Source: Mollicutes bacterium (GTDB taxonomy: Bacteria > Bacillota_I > Bacilli_A > RF39 > UBA660). From it: 38,051 nucleotides of DNA. The stretch spans positions 1 to 38,051 of the forward strand of contig PWLE01000033.1 in assembly GCA_003559495.1 (NCBI GenBank), read 5' to 3'. The translations under genes were made by a program, and so were the position numbers. The notes beneath the pieces were generated by a model, which saw nothing but the letters and a program-made list of their open reading frames with translations, did no database searches and was not told the origin of the DNA. Below, in pieces: positions 31,910 through 38,051 of the stretch (position 1 is the first letter of the stretch; the number at the start of each line of letters is the position of its first letter).

Positions 31910-32650
31910 TTATTCTAATTCACTTATTTTATTTAAAAACTCATCACTACGCATAAAAATTCCCGTATAATCACGATAATATTGCTCTAAAAATTTATTA
32001 ATTTCTTTTTTTACATTCGCTTGAATATTAATTTTACTTATTTTTTTTATATCAACATAACAAAGCATTCGTAACATTTTAATTGTTTTTTTATCATATA
32101 TGTCCTCATCTTCATAACATTGATAACAAACATAACCACCACGACGCACTGATAATGTTTTTATTCCTTTGACACTTTGACACAAAACACAATTATCAAC
32201 TACTGGTGCCACCCCTAAATAATTTAAAAAACGTAATTTTAATATTAAAGTTACTACCAAAGGATCAAAACCAGCCGCAATTTTTTCTAAAGCATTAAGT
32301 ACTTGCTTTAAAATATCCTTTTCTTTACTTTCCTTGTATACTTGTTCCGCTAAATCTAAAATAAATAATGCATAACTAATTTTAATAATATCATTGCGAA
32401 TGCCAAAGAAACTATCAATTAAATCAACTTCCTTTAAAATCGATAATTTTTTTTCTTTATAATAAAGATAAAAATTACCATAAGTTAATTTTTGGCTAAC
32501 ATTACAAAAAGGACTTTTAATATTACGACTTCCTTTGGCGATAACGCCGATTATACCATAATCAGCCGTTAAAAGATTTAAAATTCGACTACTTTCACCA
32601 TAATCAAAATCACTTATAATAATACCGGATACTTTCTTAATTTCCGCCAT
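31910..32650 (-). CDS. recO: DNA repair protein RecO
   Basis: GIIISDFDYGESSRILNLLTADYGIIGVIAKGSRNIKS and Zn motif CVLC...CYQC. Confidence 0.94.
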   Translation of the reverse strand: MAEIKKVSGIIISDFDYGESSRILNLLTADYGIIGVIAKGSRNIKSPFCNVSQKLTYGNFYLYYKEKKLSILKEVDLIDSFFGIRNDIIKISYALFILDLAEQVYKESKEKDILKQVLNALEKIAAGFDPLVVTLILKLRFLNYLGVAPVVDNCVLCQSVKGIKTLSVRRGGYVCYQCYEDEDIYDKKTIKMLRMLCYVDIKKISKINIQANVKKEINKFLEQYYRDYTGIFMRSDEFLNKISELE

Positions 32651-33518
32651 AGCCCAGTTCCTTTAATTTATCCTTTTTTTCGCGCCATTTTTTAATCACT
32701 TTTACATATAATTGCAAATAAACTTTATCATTTAATAAAGCTTCAATTTCCTCACGCGCTAAAGTTCCAATTTTTTTAATCATCGCTCCTTGACGCCCTA
32801 ATATTATTTTTTTTAATGAAGTGCGATCAACAATAATCAAAGCATCAATAATCGTTTTATTTTGTGTCTTACGCATATTTTCTACTAAACAGGTAATACT
32901 ATGAGGAACTTCTTCTTTTGTTAAAAACAAAACCTTCTCCCTAATTATTTCCCCAACCATAAATTCTAATGAACGATTCGTTACTTGCTCTTTTGGATAA
33001 TAAGGAATATCATCATTTAGATGCTGTTTAACAACTTGCAAAAAACTATCAAAGTTTTCTTTTTTTAATCCCGAAATAGGAATTATCGCCGCAAAATCAT
33101 ATAACTTTTGATACTCATCAATCTTTAACAAAATTTCATCTTTTTTTATCTTGTCAATTTTATTAAGTCCTAAAATAACTGGTCTATTTTTTTGCTTCAA
33201 AACATCAATAATTCGTTGATCCCCTTTTCCTAATTTCGCACTAGCATCAACTAAAAAGAAAACAACATCCGCCTCTTTTAAACTTTGATAAGCCGTTTGG
33301 TTTAAAACTTCGCCTAATTGATGCTTTGGCTTATGAATTCCTGGTGTATCAACAAAAACAATTTGATAATCTTCTTCATGATAAACACCATGAATAAAAT
33401 GGCGTGTCGTTCCTGGCTTATCAGAAATAATCGCCACTTTACTAGCTAAAAAATTATTTAAAAAAGTTGATTTACCAACATTCGGACGACCAACAATTGC
33501 TACAAACCCTGATTTCAT
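32637..33518 (-). CDS. era: GTPase Era
   Basis: GRPNVGKSTFLN, DTPGIHKPKHQLGE, LNKIDK, C-terminal KH domain IILGRQGAMIKKIGTLAREEIEALL. Confidence 0.97.
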   Translation of the reverse strand: MKSGFVAIVGRPNVGKSTFLNNFLASKVAIISDKPGTTRHFIHGVYHEEDYQIVFVDTPGIHKPKHQLGEVLNQTAYQSLKEADVVFFLVDASAKLGKGDQRIIDVLKQKNRPVILGLNKIDKIKKDEILLKIDEYQKLYDFAAIIPISGLKKENFDSFLQVVKQHLNDDIPYYPKEQVTNRSLEFMVGEIIREKVLFLTKEEVPHSITCLVENMRKTQNKTIIDALIIVDRTSLKKIILGRQGAMIKKIGTLAREEIEALLNDKVYLQLYVKVIKKWREKKDKLKELGYGGN

Positions 33519-33895
33519 GACAAATCCTTTTTTGTAAATGGATTAACAATAATATCACTCATTTTATAATGTCGCGTTTCACCATCAGCCATTAAAATTA
33601 AGTCACAAAACGGATCAAAAAATTCAACAATACTTTGCCGACATAAAAAACAAGGAAACGAAACTTGTGGTTTTTCAACCAAAACCGTTAAAGAAGCAAA
33701 ATCACCTTTGCGATAGCCCGCTTTAACAGCACTATTTATAGCATTTCTTTCCGCACAAATAGTGCCCCCAAAAGAAGCATTTTCAACATTAACACCATAA
33801 AATTTCTGACCATTTTGTAATGTCACGCAAGCTGCTACCCGAAAATCAGAATAAGGTGCATAAGCATTTTTTATAATTTCTCTTAAATTTTCCAT
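33515..33895 (-). CDS. cdd: Cytidine deaminase
   Basis: AYAPYSDFRVAA, GVNVENASFGGTICAERNAI, PCFLCRQSIVEF. Confidence 0.95.
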   Translation of the reverse strand: MENLREIIKNAYAPYSDFRVAACVTLQNGQKFYGVNVENASFGGTICAERNAINSAVKAGYRKGDFASLTVLVEKPQVSFPCFLCRQSIVEFFDPFCDLILMADGETRHYKMSDIIVNPFTKKDLS

Positions 33896-33907
33896 TTTCC
33901 CTCCTAT

Positions 33908-34300
33908 TTAAAATAATAGTTCAATAATTTTAGGAATAAAAATAATGCCGCCGCCAATTAAAGACAACATTGAATAAATAAAAACCGAGGCGGAAGCTAA
34001 ATCTTTCGCATATTTTGCTAATTCATGATATTCAGGCGATGCTAAATCCACTACCGCTTCAATCGCTGTGTTAATCAATTCAGCTCCTAATACTAAAACA
34101 ATCAAAATAACAACAATTAACCATTCCATAGCACTAATATCAAGCCAAAATCCAGCGATAACAGCAGCCGTAGTAATTACTAAATGAATCCACATACTTT
34201 GTTCATCACGATACGCTATCTTCAGTCCCTGAATCGAATATTTAAAAGATAGCAAAAAACGCCTAATTCCTTTCTTTTTTGTCTCATTTCGAAATACCAT
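33908..34300 (-). CDS. dgkA: Diacylglycerol kinase / undecaprenol kinase family (DgkA)
   Basis: RRFLLSFKYSIQGLKIAYRDEQSMWIH, GAELINTAIEAVVDL, AKDLASASVFIYS. Confidence 0.94.
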   Translation of the reverse strand: MVFRNETKKKGIRRFLLSFKYSIQGLKIAYRDEQSMWIHLVITTAAVIAGFWLDISAMEWLIVVILIVLVLGAELINTAIEAVVDLASPEYHELAKYAKDLASASVFIYSMLSLIGGGIIFIPKIIELLF

Positions 34301-34730
34301 ATTTCATCAAAACCTCCTTTTGTTTTTGAAACATAATTTCTTTATCTTTCTCATTTTCATGGGTCCATCCCAACAAATGATAAAAGCCATGCAACATTAA
34401 ATTTGCCAATTCTTCTATTAACTCACACCCGGCTTCCGTAGCTTGTTTTTTTGCTTGCGGAACTGATATATAAATATCACCCAATAAACGAATGGGCGGG
34501 TTTATTTGATCTTCTTTATTTTCTAATGCAAATGCTAAAACATCGGTGGTTTTATTTTTTTGCCGATATTGATAATTTAAACCTCTCATTTGTTCATCAT
34601 TAACTAAAACAACACTAAAACTCACATTATCTAACTCTTCAAAAGCAACGGCAAAATTTATTAATTTTTCTAATTCAAACTCCTTTAAATCTTCCTTCGT
34701 TAAATTATTAATTTTTATCATTTTAAGCAC
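34284..34730 (-). CDS. ybeY: Endoribonuclease YbeY
   Basis: LNYQYRQKNKTTDVLAFAL, LLGDIYISVPQA, MLHGFYHLLGWTHE. The usual first His is Gly-Phe-Tyr-His here (HGFYHLLGWTH), within normal family variation. Confidence 0.93.
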   Translation of the reverse strand: MLKMIKINNLTKEDLKEFELEKLINFAVAFEELDNVSFSVVLVNDEQMRGLNYQYRQKNKTTDVLAFALENKEDQINPPIRLLGDIYISVPQAKKQATEAGCELIEELANLMLHGFYHLLGWTHENEKDKEIMFQKQKEVLMKYGISK

Positions 34731-35245
34731 TTCCTTCCGGCAATCCTTCTGCCAATATCATAAATATAAAAACCAACCCCCGCTCCAATAACATTTAAAA
34801 GAATATCATCAACATCAAAAACGCGACCAATAAAAAATTGCGTTATTTCAATGCTTAAAGATAAAATGAAACCTAATAATAAAACCAAATATGGTTTTTT
34901 TAATTTAAAATAATATGTTAAATATAGTCCAAAAGGAATAAACATGACTATATTACCTAAAATATTACGAAAAAACAAGGAACTACCAACTTCATAACGT
35001 AATATTTCACGGAAAAAATTTAAATTATAAGTTGACCAATCAACATCATGAAAAGTAACAACATGAAATATCATTAACACATATACTAAAAAAACAAAAC
35101 TAATAATGTCATTAAACAAATTGAATTTTTTTTTATTTATAATAATATCAGTAATTCTAATCGAGATTAAAACAACCGATAAAATAACTAGCATCGGCCA
35201 AATTTGTTTAAACACTAAAATAATTGTTTCCAGAAACACTGACAA
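34718..35245 (-). CDS. VanZ-family membrane protein
   Basis: NILGNIVMFIPFGLYLTYYF, SLSIEITQFFIGRVFDVDDILLNVIGAGVGFYIYD. Confidence 0.92.
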   Translation of the reverse strand: MSVFLETIILVFKQIWPMLVILSVVLISIRITDIIINKKKFNLFNDIISFVFLVYVLMIFHVVTFHDVDWSTYNLNFFREILRYEVGSSLFFRNILGNIVMFIPFGLYLTYYFKLKKPYLVLLLGFILSLSIEITQFFIGRVFDVDDILLNVIGAGVGFYIYDIGRRIAGRKCLK

Positions 35246-35354: not shown

Positions 35355-36671
35355 ATGAAAAGAATTCTAATTTTAATTTTAACAAAAATAATCGCCTTCA
35401 TCCTTTTTAAAATACAAAAAAACAGTGATTTGCCTGGCCTTATTGCTCTTAAATTAGATCGCGCTATTATTAGTTATTTCACTCTCCCGCAAAATACTAT
35501 TTTTGTTAGTGGTACGAACATTAAATCAGCCGTTGCTAATAATATTTATCAAATATATACTAAAGAAGGATATAACGTTGCTGAAAACGCTTTTAGTTCA
35601 AACCATTATCTCGGCGTCTTAACCTATTTAATTAAAAACAGCAACTTATTTGGAAAAATAAAACCTAATATCCTTGTTTTAAAAGTTGATACTCTTGCTT
35701 TAGAAAATATTTTATCAAAACTAACCCCTAGCCACCTCATAGTTACTAACTTATCACGCGAACAATCAATGATAACCGGCCACTTTGAAGAAACTTTTAT
35801 AAAAATTAAAAACAATATTAAAGAGCCCACGAAGCTTATTTTAAACGCCGATGATCCCTTAGTTTTTAGTTTAAGTCTTCATTATAAAGGTAATATAACT
35901 TACTTTGGTATTGAAAATAATTTTAACAATCAAAACACTACCTTAGATTATGATGATAATCTAGATTTTCTCTACTGTCCTATTTGTGATACAAAATTAA
36001 TTTATGAAAAAATCTTCTATAATAATATTGGTCATTATCACTGTCCTCAAAATCATTATACCCGCCCCACGCCACAATATCCTGTTACAATTGATAATCA
36101 AGAAACTTGTCTTATTAATCAACAAAAAATAAAACTTAGCGAACCTGTTTTATATCATGTTTATAATTTAGCAGCCACCTATACTCTTTTAAAAGAACAA
36201 GTTTTAATCGATAACGAAAAAATTATCAATCATTTAAATAATATCAAAGATATTACAATTGAAAAATATCAACACCACAATAAAAATTTTTTCTTCCCGC
36301 CAACTAAAACAACCAATCCTGTTTCCTACTATCATATATTAGATTACATTAGCAAACAAAAAACACCAATTACACTTGTAATAGGCTATCAAAGGTTAAG
36401 TAACGAATATATTGAAAATGATGTTTCTTGGCTTTGGGATGTTAAATTTGAATTAATTAACAATGATTATATAAAAAATATTATTTGCTTAGAAAAATAC
36501 GCTTATGATATCGCCCTTCGCTTAAAATATGCTAATTTTAATCCTGATCGAATTACCATTATTAAAAATGAGCAAAAATTTTTAAAAAATCTTGATGAGT
36601 ATACTAGTGAAAACATTTATTTTTTAACTTGTGATAATTTAACAAAAAAATTCAAAAAGAAAGGGAAATGA
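35355..36671 (+). CDS. murT: MurT-like Mur ligase family protein (divergent)
   Basis: Mur ligase core with LILNADDPLVFSL, Zn-ribbon-like CPICDTKL...HYHCPQNH, C-terminal DUF1727-type NDVSWLWDVKFE and AYDIALRLKYA; adjacent gatD-like gene. Confidence 0.85.
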   Translation: MKRILILILTKIIAFILFKIQKNSDLPGLIALKLDRAIISYFTLPQNTIFVSGTNIKSAVANNIYQIYTKEGYNVAENAFSSNHYLGVLTYLIKNSNLFGKIKPNILVLKVDTLALENILSKLTPSHLIVTNLSREQSMITGHFEETFIKIKNNIKEPTKLILNADDPLVFSLSLHYKGNITYFGIENNFNNQNTTLDYDDNLDFLYCPICDTKLIYEKIFYNNIGHYHCPQNHYTRPTPQYPVTIDNQETCLINQQKIKLSEPVLYHVYNLAATYTLLKEQVLIDNEKIINHLNNIKDITIEKYQHHNKNFFFPPTKTTNPVSYYHILDYISKQKTPITLVIGYQRLSNEYIENDVSWLWDVKFELINNDYIKNIICLEKYAYDIALRLKYANFNPDRITIIKNEQKFLKNLDEYTSENIYFLTCDNLTKKFKKKGK

Positions 36672-36675
36672 TAAG

Positions 36676-37341
36676 ATGACTATTAAAATTGCTTATTTAT
36701 ATTACGATCTATTAAATTTAAATGGTGAAAATGGCAATATAAAAATTTTAAAACAACAACTGGAAAAACAAAACATTAAAGTTGAATTAGTGCTTTTAAC
36801 AACTACTGATAATATTATCGGAGAATCCTATGATTTATTTTATATTGGTGGCGGAACCGAAAACCATCTCCGAATTGCCTTAAAACATTTGCAAAAACAT
36901 CAACAAACAATTCATCAAGCAATTGAAAACCATAAATTCTTTTTGGTCACTGGTAACTCATTGGAACTTTTCGGGAAAAAAGGCATTGGCATTTTTGATT
37001 TTGAAGAACAAACAGCTGAAAAACCTTTTCAAGAAGTAATTTTAGAAACTGATTTTGTTGGCAAAGGAATTATCGGACTTTTAAATCAAAAAAAAGATAT
37101 TATCGAAACAAAATATCCTTTTTTCAAAAACTCACAACAAGGAATTCATTATATTAATTTTTTCGCCCCCAAAGTTTTCGGACCTATTTTTGCCAAAAAC
37201 CCTTTATTTTTAGAATTTTTCCTTAAACAATTAGTTTTGTTTAAATATCCTTTTTTTACTTTCCAACCAATTGAATTTGAATTTGAAGAAATGGCTTATT
37301 ATAATTATCAAAAACTAATGCATAAAAAATTAGTTGAATAA
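36676..37341 (+). CDS. gatD: GatD-like class I glutamine amidotransferase-fold protein lacking catalytic residues
   Basis: LYYDLLNLNGENGNIKILKQQLEKQNIKVE, YDLFYIGGGTE, ELFGKKGIGIFDF, GIHYINFF...FGPIFAKNP align by eye along GatD; no Cys anywhere in the protein. Confidence 0.8.
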   Translation: MTIKIAYLYYDLLNLNGENGNIKILKQQLEKQNIKVELVLLTTTDNIIGESYDLFYIGGGTENHLRIALKHLQKHQQTIHQAIENHKFFLVTGNSLELFGKKGIGIFDFEEQTAEKPFQEVILETDFVGKGIIGLLNQKKDIIETKYPFFKNSQQGIHYINFFAPKVFGPIFAKNPLFLEFFLKQLVLFKYPFFTFQPIEFEFEEMAYYNYQKLMHKKLVE

Positions 37342-37342
37342 A

Positions 37343-37365
37343 AAAACTTAGCTTAGCTAAGTTTT
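37343..37365. terminator. Bidirectional terminator between convergent genes
   Basis: Perfect AAAACTTAGC-TTA-GCTAAGTTTT hairpin with A- and T-rich flanks. Confidence 0.85.
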
Positions 37366-38051
37366 ATTTTTTCCACATCTTCCAAACTCATATTAGCAGC
37401 GGCATTTTGAAAATATTCTTCAACTGATTCTAACTCTGGATACTCTAAACCGGTTTCACTAATATAACTTGGATCACTACACAAACATAATTGAAAATTT
37501 TCTAGTTCCTCGGGTGTTATATTTTCTTTTTTCAAAAAAGCATCAATAATTGCTTTTTGCGTCTGCGCATAATTACTTTTCTTGCTTTTCTTGCGATAAT
37601 GATAATTATAATCTAATAACTCAATAATTTTTTTAACATCTTTAACTTCATTTGGTAAAAAACCAGTTTTATCATTAACAACAAAATCAACGACTCGTTC
37701 TAATCCATAACAATTTGATAATAAATTTAAAATGTTCTCTTCTTCAACTAAAGCAAAATTATCCAAATTACCATTACTATTATTAACTAACAATGAAGCT
37801 AAGCCTTTTGTTAATGCTGGTGAGTTATTTTTCATTTCGCTAGCAAGCATTTCTACTAGTAAAAAATGACGATAATCTCCATCTTGTTCCTTTCCCAAAG
37901 AAACAACAATTTTTTCATTCTTTTCGTTCATAATTAAAGGCTCTGGTTGAACAAAACCACTTTGGCTTTTCACTTCTAAATTATCTAGTTTGTCCATCTT
38001 TGCTGTTAAAGAAGTTTGCAATTCATTAAAAACTTCTTCTTGTTGTAAATA
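37353..38051 (-). CDS. Protein of unknown function, N-terminus beyond right window edge
   Basis: Frame stays open upstream of the ORF-track start (YLQQEEVFNELQTSLTAK...) to the window edge; no recognised motif. Confidence 0.6.
   Translation of the reverse strand, partial: YLQQEEVFNELQTSLTAKMDKLDNLEVKSQSGFVQPEPLIMNEKNEKIVVSLGKEQDGDYRHFLLVEMLASEMKNNSPALTKGLASLLVNNSNGNLDNFALVEEENILNLLSNCYGLERVVDFVVNDKTGFLPNEVKDVKKIIELLDYNYHYRKKSKKSNYAQTQKAIIDAFLKKENITPEELENFQLCLCSDPSYISETGLEYPELESVEEYFQNAAANMSLEDVEKIKLS

Follow-up and report, generated by a model that had tools for sequence, protein, structure and literature searches.

The murT-gatD pair at the end of a Mollicutes contig

The DNA analysed here (the window) is a 38,051-nucleotide stretch from a Mollicutes bacterium, contig 5 of an assembly that totals 566.8 kb and is 82.7% complete. 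Near its end, gatD directly follows murT, with four bases between the two genes. The features are:

32637-35245, minus strand: era, cdd, dgkA, ybeY and a VanZ-like gene, upstream of murT-gatD
35355-36671, plus strand: murT, Mur-ligase-like partner of 438 residues with a degenerate ATP/Mg site
35511-35528, plus strand: MurT P-loop, G53-T-N-I56-K57-S58 (canonical GTNGKT; Ile at S. pneumoniae G58)
35682-35693, plus strand: MurT K110-V-D112-T113, at the Mg2+ ligands (canonical E-x-D-E; PMC6085368)
36676-37341, plus strand: gatD, TGN-type pseudo-glutaminase, ATG start, 221 residues, no Cys
36946-36960, plus strand: V91-T92-G93-N94-S95, former nucleophile elbow of GatD (canonical I-C-G-G), with Gly93 for Cys
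37021-37023, plus strand: Lys116 of GatD, where canonical GatDs have the Arg that captures glutamine (S. aureus R128, S. pneumoniae R142)
37177-37185, plus strand: F168-G169-P170 of GatD, former H-G-P, with Phe168 for the catalytic His

The gatD product is a GatD-fold homologue. It matches the NCBIfam GatD models with E-values of 1.1e-17 and 7.4e-17, yet falls under their curated cut-offs (400-450 bits), and the S. aureus GatD structures 5n9m and 6gs2 with E-values of about 3e-17. Its AlphaFold model (pLDDT 95.2) aligns with S. aureus GatD at a TM-score of 0.83-0.84, and the best nine PDB matches are GatD chains throughout. The alignment is gapless where the nucleophile Cys faces Gly93 and the catalytic His faces Phe168. 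A preliminary description of this DNA had read the protein as a GatD homologue over its whole length, without a single Cys and incapable of a Cys/His glutaminase mechanism; the alignment on which this depended stands, and so does each of these statements.

The murT product matches the Pfam model MurT_C (E-value 5.9e-22; 78 bits against a cut-off of 25), and its model shows the Mur ligase fold (TM-score 0.74 to S. pyogenes MurT). The pair resembles the MurT/GatD of S. aureus, S. pneumoniae and S. pyogenes in gene order, in the Mur-ligase fold and zinc ribbon of MurT, in the fold of GatD and in the interface residues D355, W358 and D361 of MurT and G34 of GatD. It differs from them in that its GatD lacks Cys, His, Y30 and R142, and its MurT lacks G58, E110, E113 and R140. 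The ATP/Mg2+ site positions G58, K59, E110, D112 and E113 read I, K, K, D and T, and the substitutions in full are G58I, E110K, E113T and R140I; the P-loop Lys57, the N85 equivalent and Asp112 are still present. Three of the four zinc-ribbon Cys remain; Asn takes the place of the fourth, a state shared by 10% of the relatives described below.

Since the order era-cdd-dgkA-ybeY-VanZ recurs beside murT-gatD in three other loci (L077, L079 and L081), the pair occupies a conserved chromosomal site. Close to the end of the contig, an ORF without a Pfam match runs towards gatD (37353-38021, minus strand). The genome carries a second murT-gatD pair on contig 23 (L003:7339-9370, minus strand), whose MurT is intact, with GTNGKT and FEVDER, and whose GatD also lacks both catalytic residues (ATGNAIEIFG, LLGP). 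The preliminary description had suggested looking for a second, canonical pair, or for a catalytic glutaminase elsewhere that would make this an ordinary enzyme: the second pair exists but is not canonical, and searches with GATase_3, MurT_C and custom profiles found no more than two GatD-like proteins and two MurTs in the 82.7%-complete assembly, both GatDs being Cys-less and neither canonical. A general loss of glutaminases in this genome is ruled out, as its CTP synthase retains CLGMQ and HPE.

For the wall precursor, the genome has murA, murB, murE, mraY, murG, ftsW, a PBP, ftsA and ftsZ, and murC, murD, murF, ddl, murI and glnA went undetected in the 82.7%-complete assembly. Some related genomes are likewise without MurC, yet keep mraY and PBPs. 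In five genomes that are 92-95% complete (G021, G043, G060, G079 and G085), all with mraY and PBPs, MurT is the sole Mur ligase seen. The missing ligases may reflect a real loss of the pathway, scavenging or ligases that escape recognition; masked sequence is not the cause, as the sequence examined contains no N runs. To judge from the names of related bins, the host probably belongs to an RF39-like order; a survey of such orders describes gaps in the wall-precursor pathway and suggests that muropeptides may be scavenged (PMC10868615).

A clan of MurT/GatD pairs without the glutaminase residues

The Cys-less state, which the preliminary description had treated as a property of this one pair, is real but general to a large clan, for which we coin the name 'TGN type'. 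The nucleophile Cys or the catalytic His occurs in none of 167 distinct related GatDs, which instead share the motifs T-G-N-[SA]-x-[ED] and [I/L/T]-G-P. Conservation of the window's TGNS and FGP had been proposed as a check: the elbow and the G-P are kept, and the residue before G-P is variable, never His. The clan comprises uncultured Bacilli and Clostridia (Ruminococcus bromii, Massiliimalia) and stands apart from canonical GatDs with CGGYQ and HGP.

In the window genome's family, MurT was found in 61 of 147 genomes, and 66 of the 68 adjacent GatDs are Cys-less, with two canonical exceptions (L006, L007). A scan of named genomes yielded 80 loci in which every GatD is Cys-less, many from Clostridia (R. 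bromii L144, Massiliimalia L116, bins of Oscillospiraceae and Lachnospiraceae); as this set came from a clan query, it measures the clan's reach, not its frequency. These loci share no conserved partner gene next to the pairs; a few adjoin murB, murG, ftsQ, ftsA or ftsZ. The less biased sampling with the MurT_C model gave 33 of 396 genomes in a phylum sample and, around R. bromii, 153 of 293. With this model, most canonical MurTs reach about 95 bits or higher, and TGN types score lower; by score, at least 32 of the 153 R. bromii-area genomes are of the TGN type, and 24 of those 32 were read. A canonical-scoring MurT was found in none of 30 named TGN genomes. Most genomes are metagenome bins, and these counts apply to the sampled set alone.

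A tree of Cys-less GatDs, another check that had been proposed, yields one fully supported clan. In a tree of 243 MurT+GatD pairs, built without the catalytic motifs, the window pair groups with the TGN clan and the Cys label needs three changes; an 82-row maximum-likelihood tree without the motif columns concurs, separating its 52 TGN rows from the rest by a branch with an SH-aLRT support of 100. The trees are unrooted; Cys and His are generally conserved in class I glutaminases, and the direction of the change in the main clan is therefore taken to be loss. The other two changes are Cys losses inside the canonical clan, both with intact MurT. In L243, L267, L268 and L269, Cys became Ala or Gly and His became Ser or Thr (e.g. 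VATGYPLLG, SGP); in L244, a single GatD in which an assembly error is possible, Cys became Ser and His is kept (ISSGYQMLG, HGS). The contig 23 pair falls in a different sub-clan from the window pair. A deep sub-clan (L072, L073, L259, L261, L279, L280 and L281) has GatD motifs such as TGTT or IGTT and TNxLGP; L072 and L073 have a different MurT C-terminal motif, and the function of this sub-clan may differ.

We compared the residues of the TGN pairs with those of 62 canonical pairs. TGN MurTs retain K59 (98%), N85 (98%), E110 (97%), D112 (98%) and E113 (97%), and all seven MurT residues checked are present in 161 of 167 distinct pairs (170 of 176 rows). Their GatDs have the elbow T-G-N at 97, 99 and 90%, followed at position 95 by Ser in about half the clan and Ala in 43%; the middle oxyanion Gly (Gly73) is mostly lost, and an acid replaces Gln111 in 90-91%. 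The Cys has not been relocated elsewhere in GatD, as no Cys column attains 25% in the clan. The glutamine-capturing R142 is kept in 158 of 172 GatDs with an intact MurT (92%; rank 15 of 233 columns), so that the pocket remains constrained. A MurT loop is altered clan-wide as well (D139 to T, P and others; E143 to H in 75%; G325 to S in 65%). Judged by these residues, the main clan and the two later losses alike keep the ligase and give up the glutaminase. At the level of sequence, this shows a large, previously unremarked MurT/GatD branch in which GatD appears as a conserved pseudo-enzyme; in the literature searched, with most subscription papers outside its reach, we found no description of a Cys-less GatD.

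The window pair as a putative double pseudoenzyme

Within this clan, the window pair would represent a further step. Its MurT lacks the glycine of the P-loop, two of the acids that bind Mg2+ and a loop arginine, and its GatD lacks the pocket arginine. In carbamoyl phosphate synthetase (CPS) I of frog and human, a class I glutaminase domain without Cys is retained within an ammonia-using synthetase; this profile of lost glutaminase residues beside an intact synthetase site fits 161 of the 167 distinct clan pairs, but not the window pair. Free ammonia, which the preliminary description had offered as an option for the window pair, suits the clan but hardly this pair, given the four MurT residues it has lost.

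We consider it quite unlikely that the window pair itself works as an amidotransferase fed by ammonia. The fold is retained, as are Lys57, the N85 equivalent, Asp112 and the interface residues, but the combined substitutions hit residues that the 161 relatives retain in full, and S. pneumoniae MurT/GatD keeps about 3% activity with D112S/E113S and 2% with K59A (PMC6085368). That the pair is instead a pseudogene dying after the arrival of the second pair appears very improbable. The numerous active-site losses, the small genome and the origin of the second pair in another sub-clan would fit such a history, but the frames are intact, the AlphaFold models of the pair reach pLDDT values of 95 and 87, and the main MurT lesions recur in L035, from the second genome of the window genus (76% complete), in which Gly stands at the position of Lys116. 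Between the two, at 76-78% identity, dN/dS is 0.10 for MurT and 0.17 for GatD (NG86; dS is 1.5 and 0.8, near saturation). By this estimate, both window genes are under purifying selection. With the residues lost, dN/dS low and the site conserved, the resident pair appears to have decayed catalytically, not as genes.

Strongly degenerate MurTs are found four times (window, L035, L044 and L070), each in a genome with two pairs. L044, whose P-loop is still intact, is intermediate, and L070 (G088) represents a separate loss of the ATP/Mg site beside a Cys-less GatD. The second MurT of these genomes is free of such lesions, the copy in G115 (L015) being truncated before its P-loop. All four lack GatD R142, a loss seen in 14 of the other 172 (Fisher p 8e-5; the four represent only two lineages). 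As purifying selection appears to act on the genes and each strongly degenerate MurT found is accompanied by a second one, the window pair most likely has no catalysis of its own and serves as a partner, stabiliser or regulator for the contig 23 pair or its substrate.

Nitrogen source of the TGN clan

S. aureus offers a precedent for what the glutaminase-less pairs do, since GatD C94G carries the identical Cys-to-Gly change. This laboratory mutant no longer uses glutamine, but at pH 8.5 it supports lipid II amidation from NH3 as before; MurT requires GatD even when supplied with ammonia (PMC3266927). In TGN pairs, unlike in this mutant, the change is natural and clan-wide, His is lost as well and the elbow is rebuilt as TGN[SA]. 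From these data and the intact MurT, we infer that the clan uses ammonia: GatD would act as a structural and gating subunit that MurT requires to work, free ammonia rather than GatD-hydrolysed glutamine would provide the nitrogen for the D-Glu alpha-carboxyl of the wall precursor, and it would enter through the former GatD pocket; another amine as donor seems less likely. Since the S. aureus pair uses ammonia at pH 8.5 only, not at 7.5 (PMC3266927), such use is not assured in a neutral cytoplasm. The CPS I of amphibians, too, works with ammonia after the loss of its glutaminase Cys (PMC2566978), and the fold matches of the window GatD model include human CPS1, but the CPS I glutaminase domain is fused to carbamoyl phosphate synthetase, whereas the window GatD has a Mur ligase as its partner. 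MurT-like proteins of archaea lack a glutaminase partner altogether (PMC11915815), unlike the TGN clan, which keeps GatD as a pseudoenzyme. Glutamine synthetase was found in none of 24 genomes of the window genome's family (14 of 14 controls were positive); it is also absent from two relatives with canonical GatD and present in Clostridia with TGN pairs, so its absence is not specific as a driver of Cys loss, and a shortage of glutamine does not explain that loss.

It is barely credible that glutamine is still hydrolysed, with Thr92 or Ser95 replacing Cys as nucleophile. Thr92 is 97% conserved and about half the clan has Ser at position 95, but the latter is Ala in 43%, the catalytic His is gone in all, the oxyanion Gly73 is gone in most, and C94A, H189A and R128A each abolish the S. 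aureus glutaminase (PMC5871853). A bound ligand, by contrast, is a live alternative given the conserved R142: this Arg (92%) and the acid at position 111 (91%) exceed the needs of a scaffold or ammonia port, which suggests that something is bound. The TGN pairs could be amino-acid or amine ligases whose old glutamine pocket holds an amino acid that MurT attaches whole to the alpha-carboxyl of D-Glu, in the manner of group B cross-bridges or of D-Glu substituted with glycine. The two pocket residues, the clan-wide changes in the MurT loop and the 30 named genomes in which TGN and canonical MurTs were not found together speak for this, but no conserved amino-acid-supplying gene lies beside the pairs, the GatD-MurT passage is described as an ammonia route (PMC6085368) and would, we infer, have to be rebuilt to let a whole amino acid pass, and we found no literature linking group B peptidoglycan to the pairs; overall, we hold this reading unlikely. 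A broader version, in which TGN GatD is a repurposed ligand-binding subunit whose Arg and new acid would bind an amino acid or amine for MurT to attach to D-Glu, the wall modification is other than D-isoglutamine and the window pair is a regulatory double pseudoenzyme, appears rather improbable. Our preferred reading, which we give an even chance as a whole, is that the clan joins ammonia or an amine without the GatD glutaminase and that the window pair is a non-catalytic partner of the contig 23 pair.

The amidation of D-Glu is important for cross-linking and, in several Gram-positive bacteria, essential; it is taken to depend on glutamine. In gut lineages, among them Ruminococcus bromii and many uncultured Bacilli, MurT is paired with a GatD that, by its residues, would be unable to split glutamine. 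If ammonia is used, this would be a natural and repeated switch of the nitrogen source in wall synthesis, like that from CPS III to CPS I; if another amine is used, the wall chemistry of these lineages would be new territory. Cultured TGN species make the question testable now.
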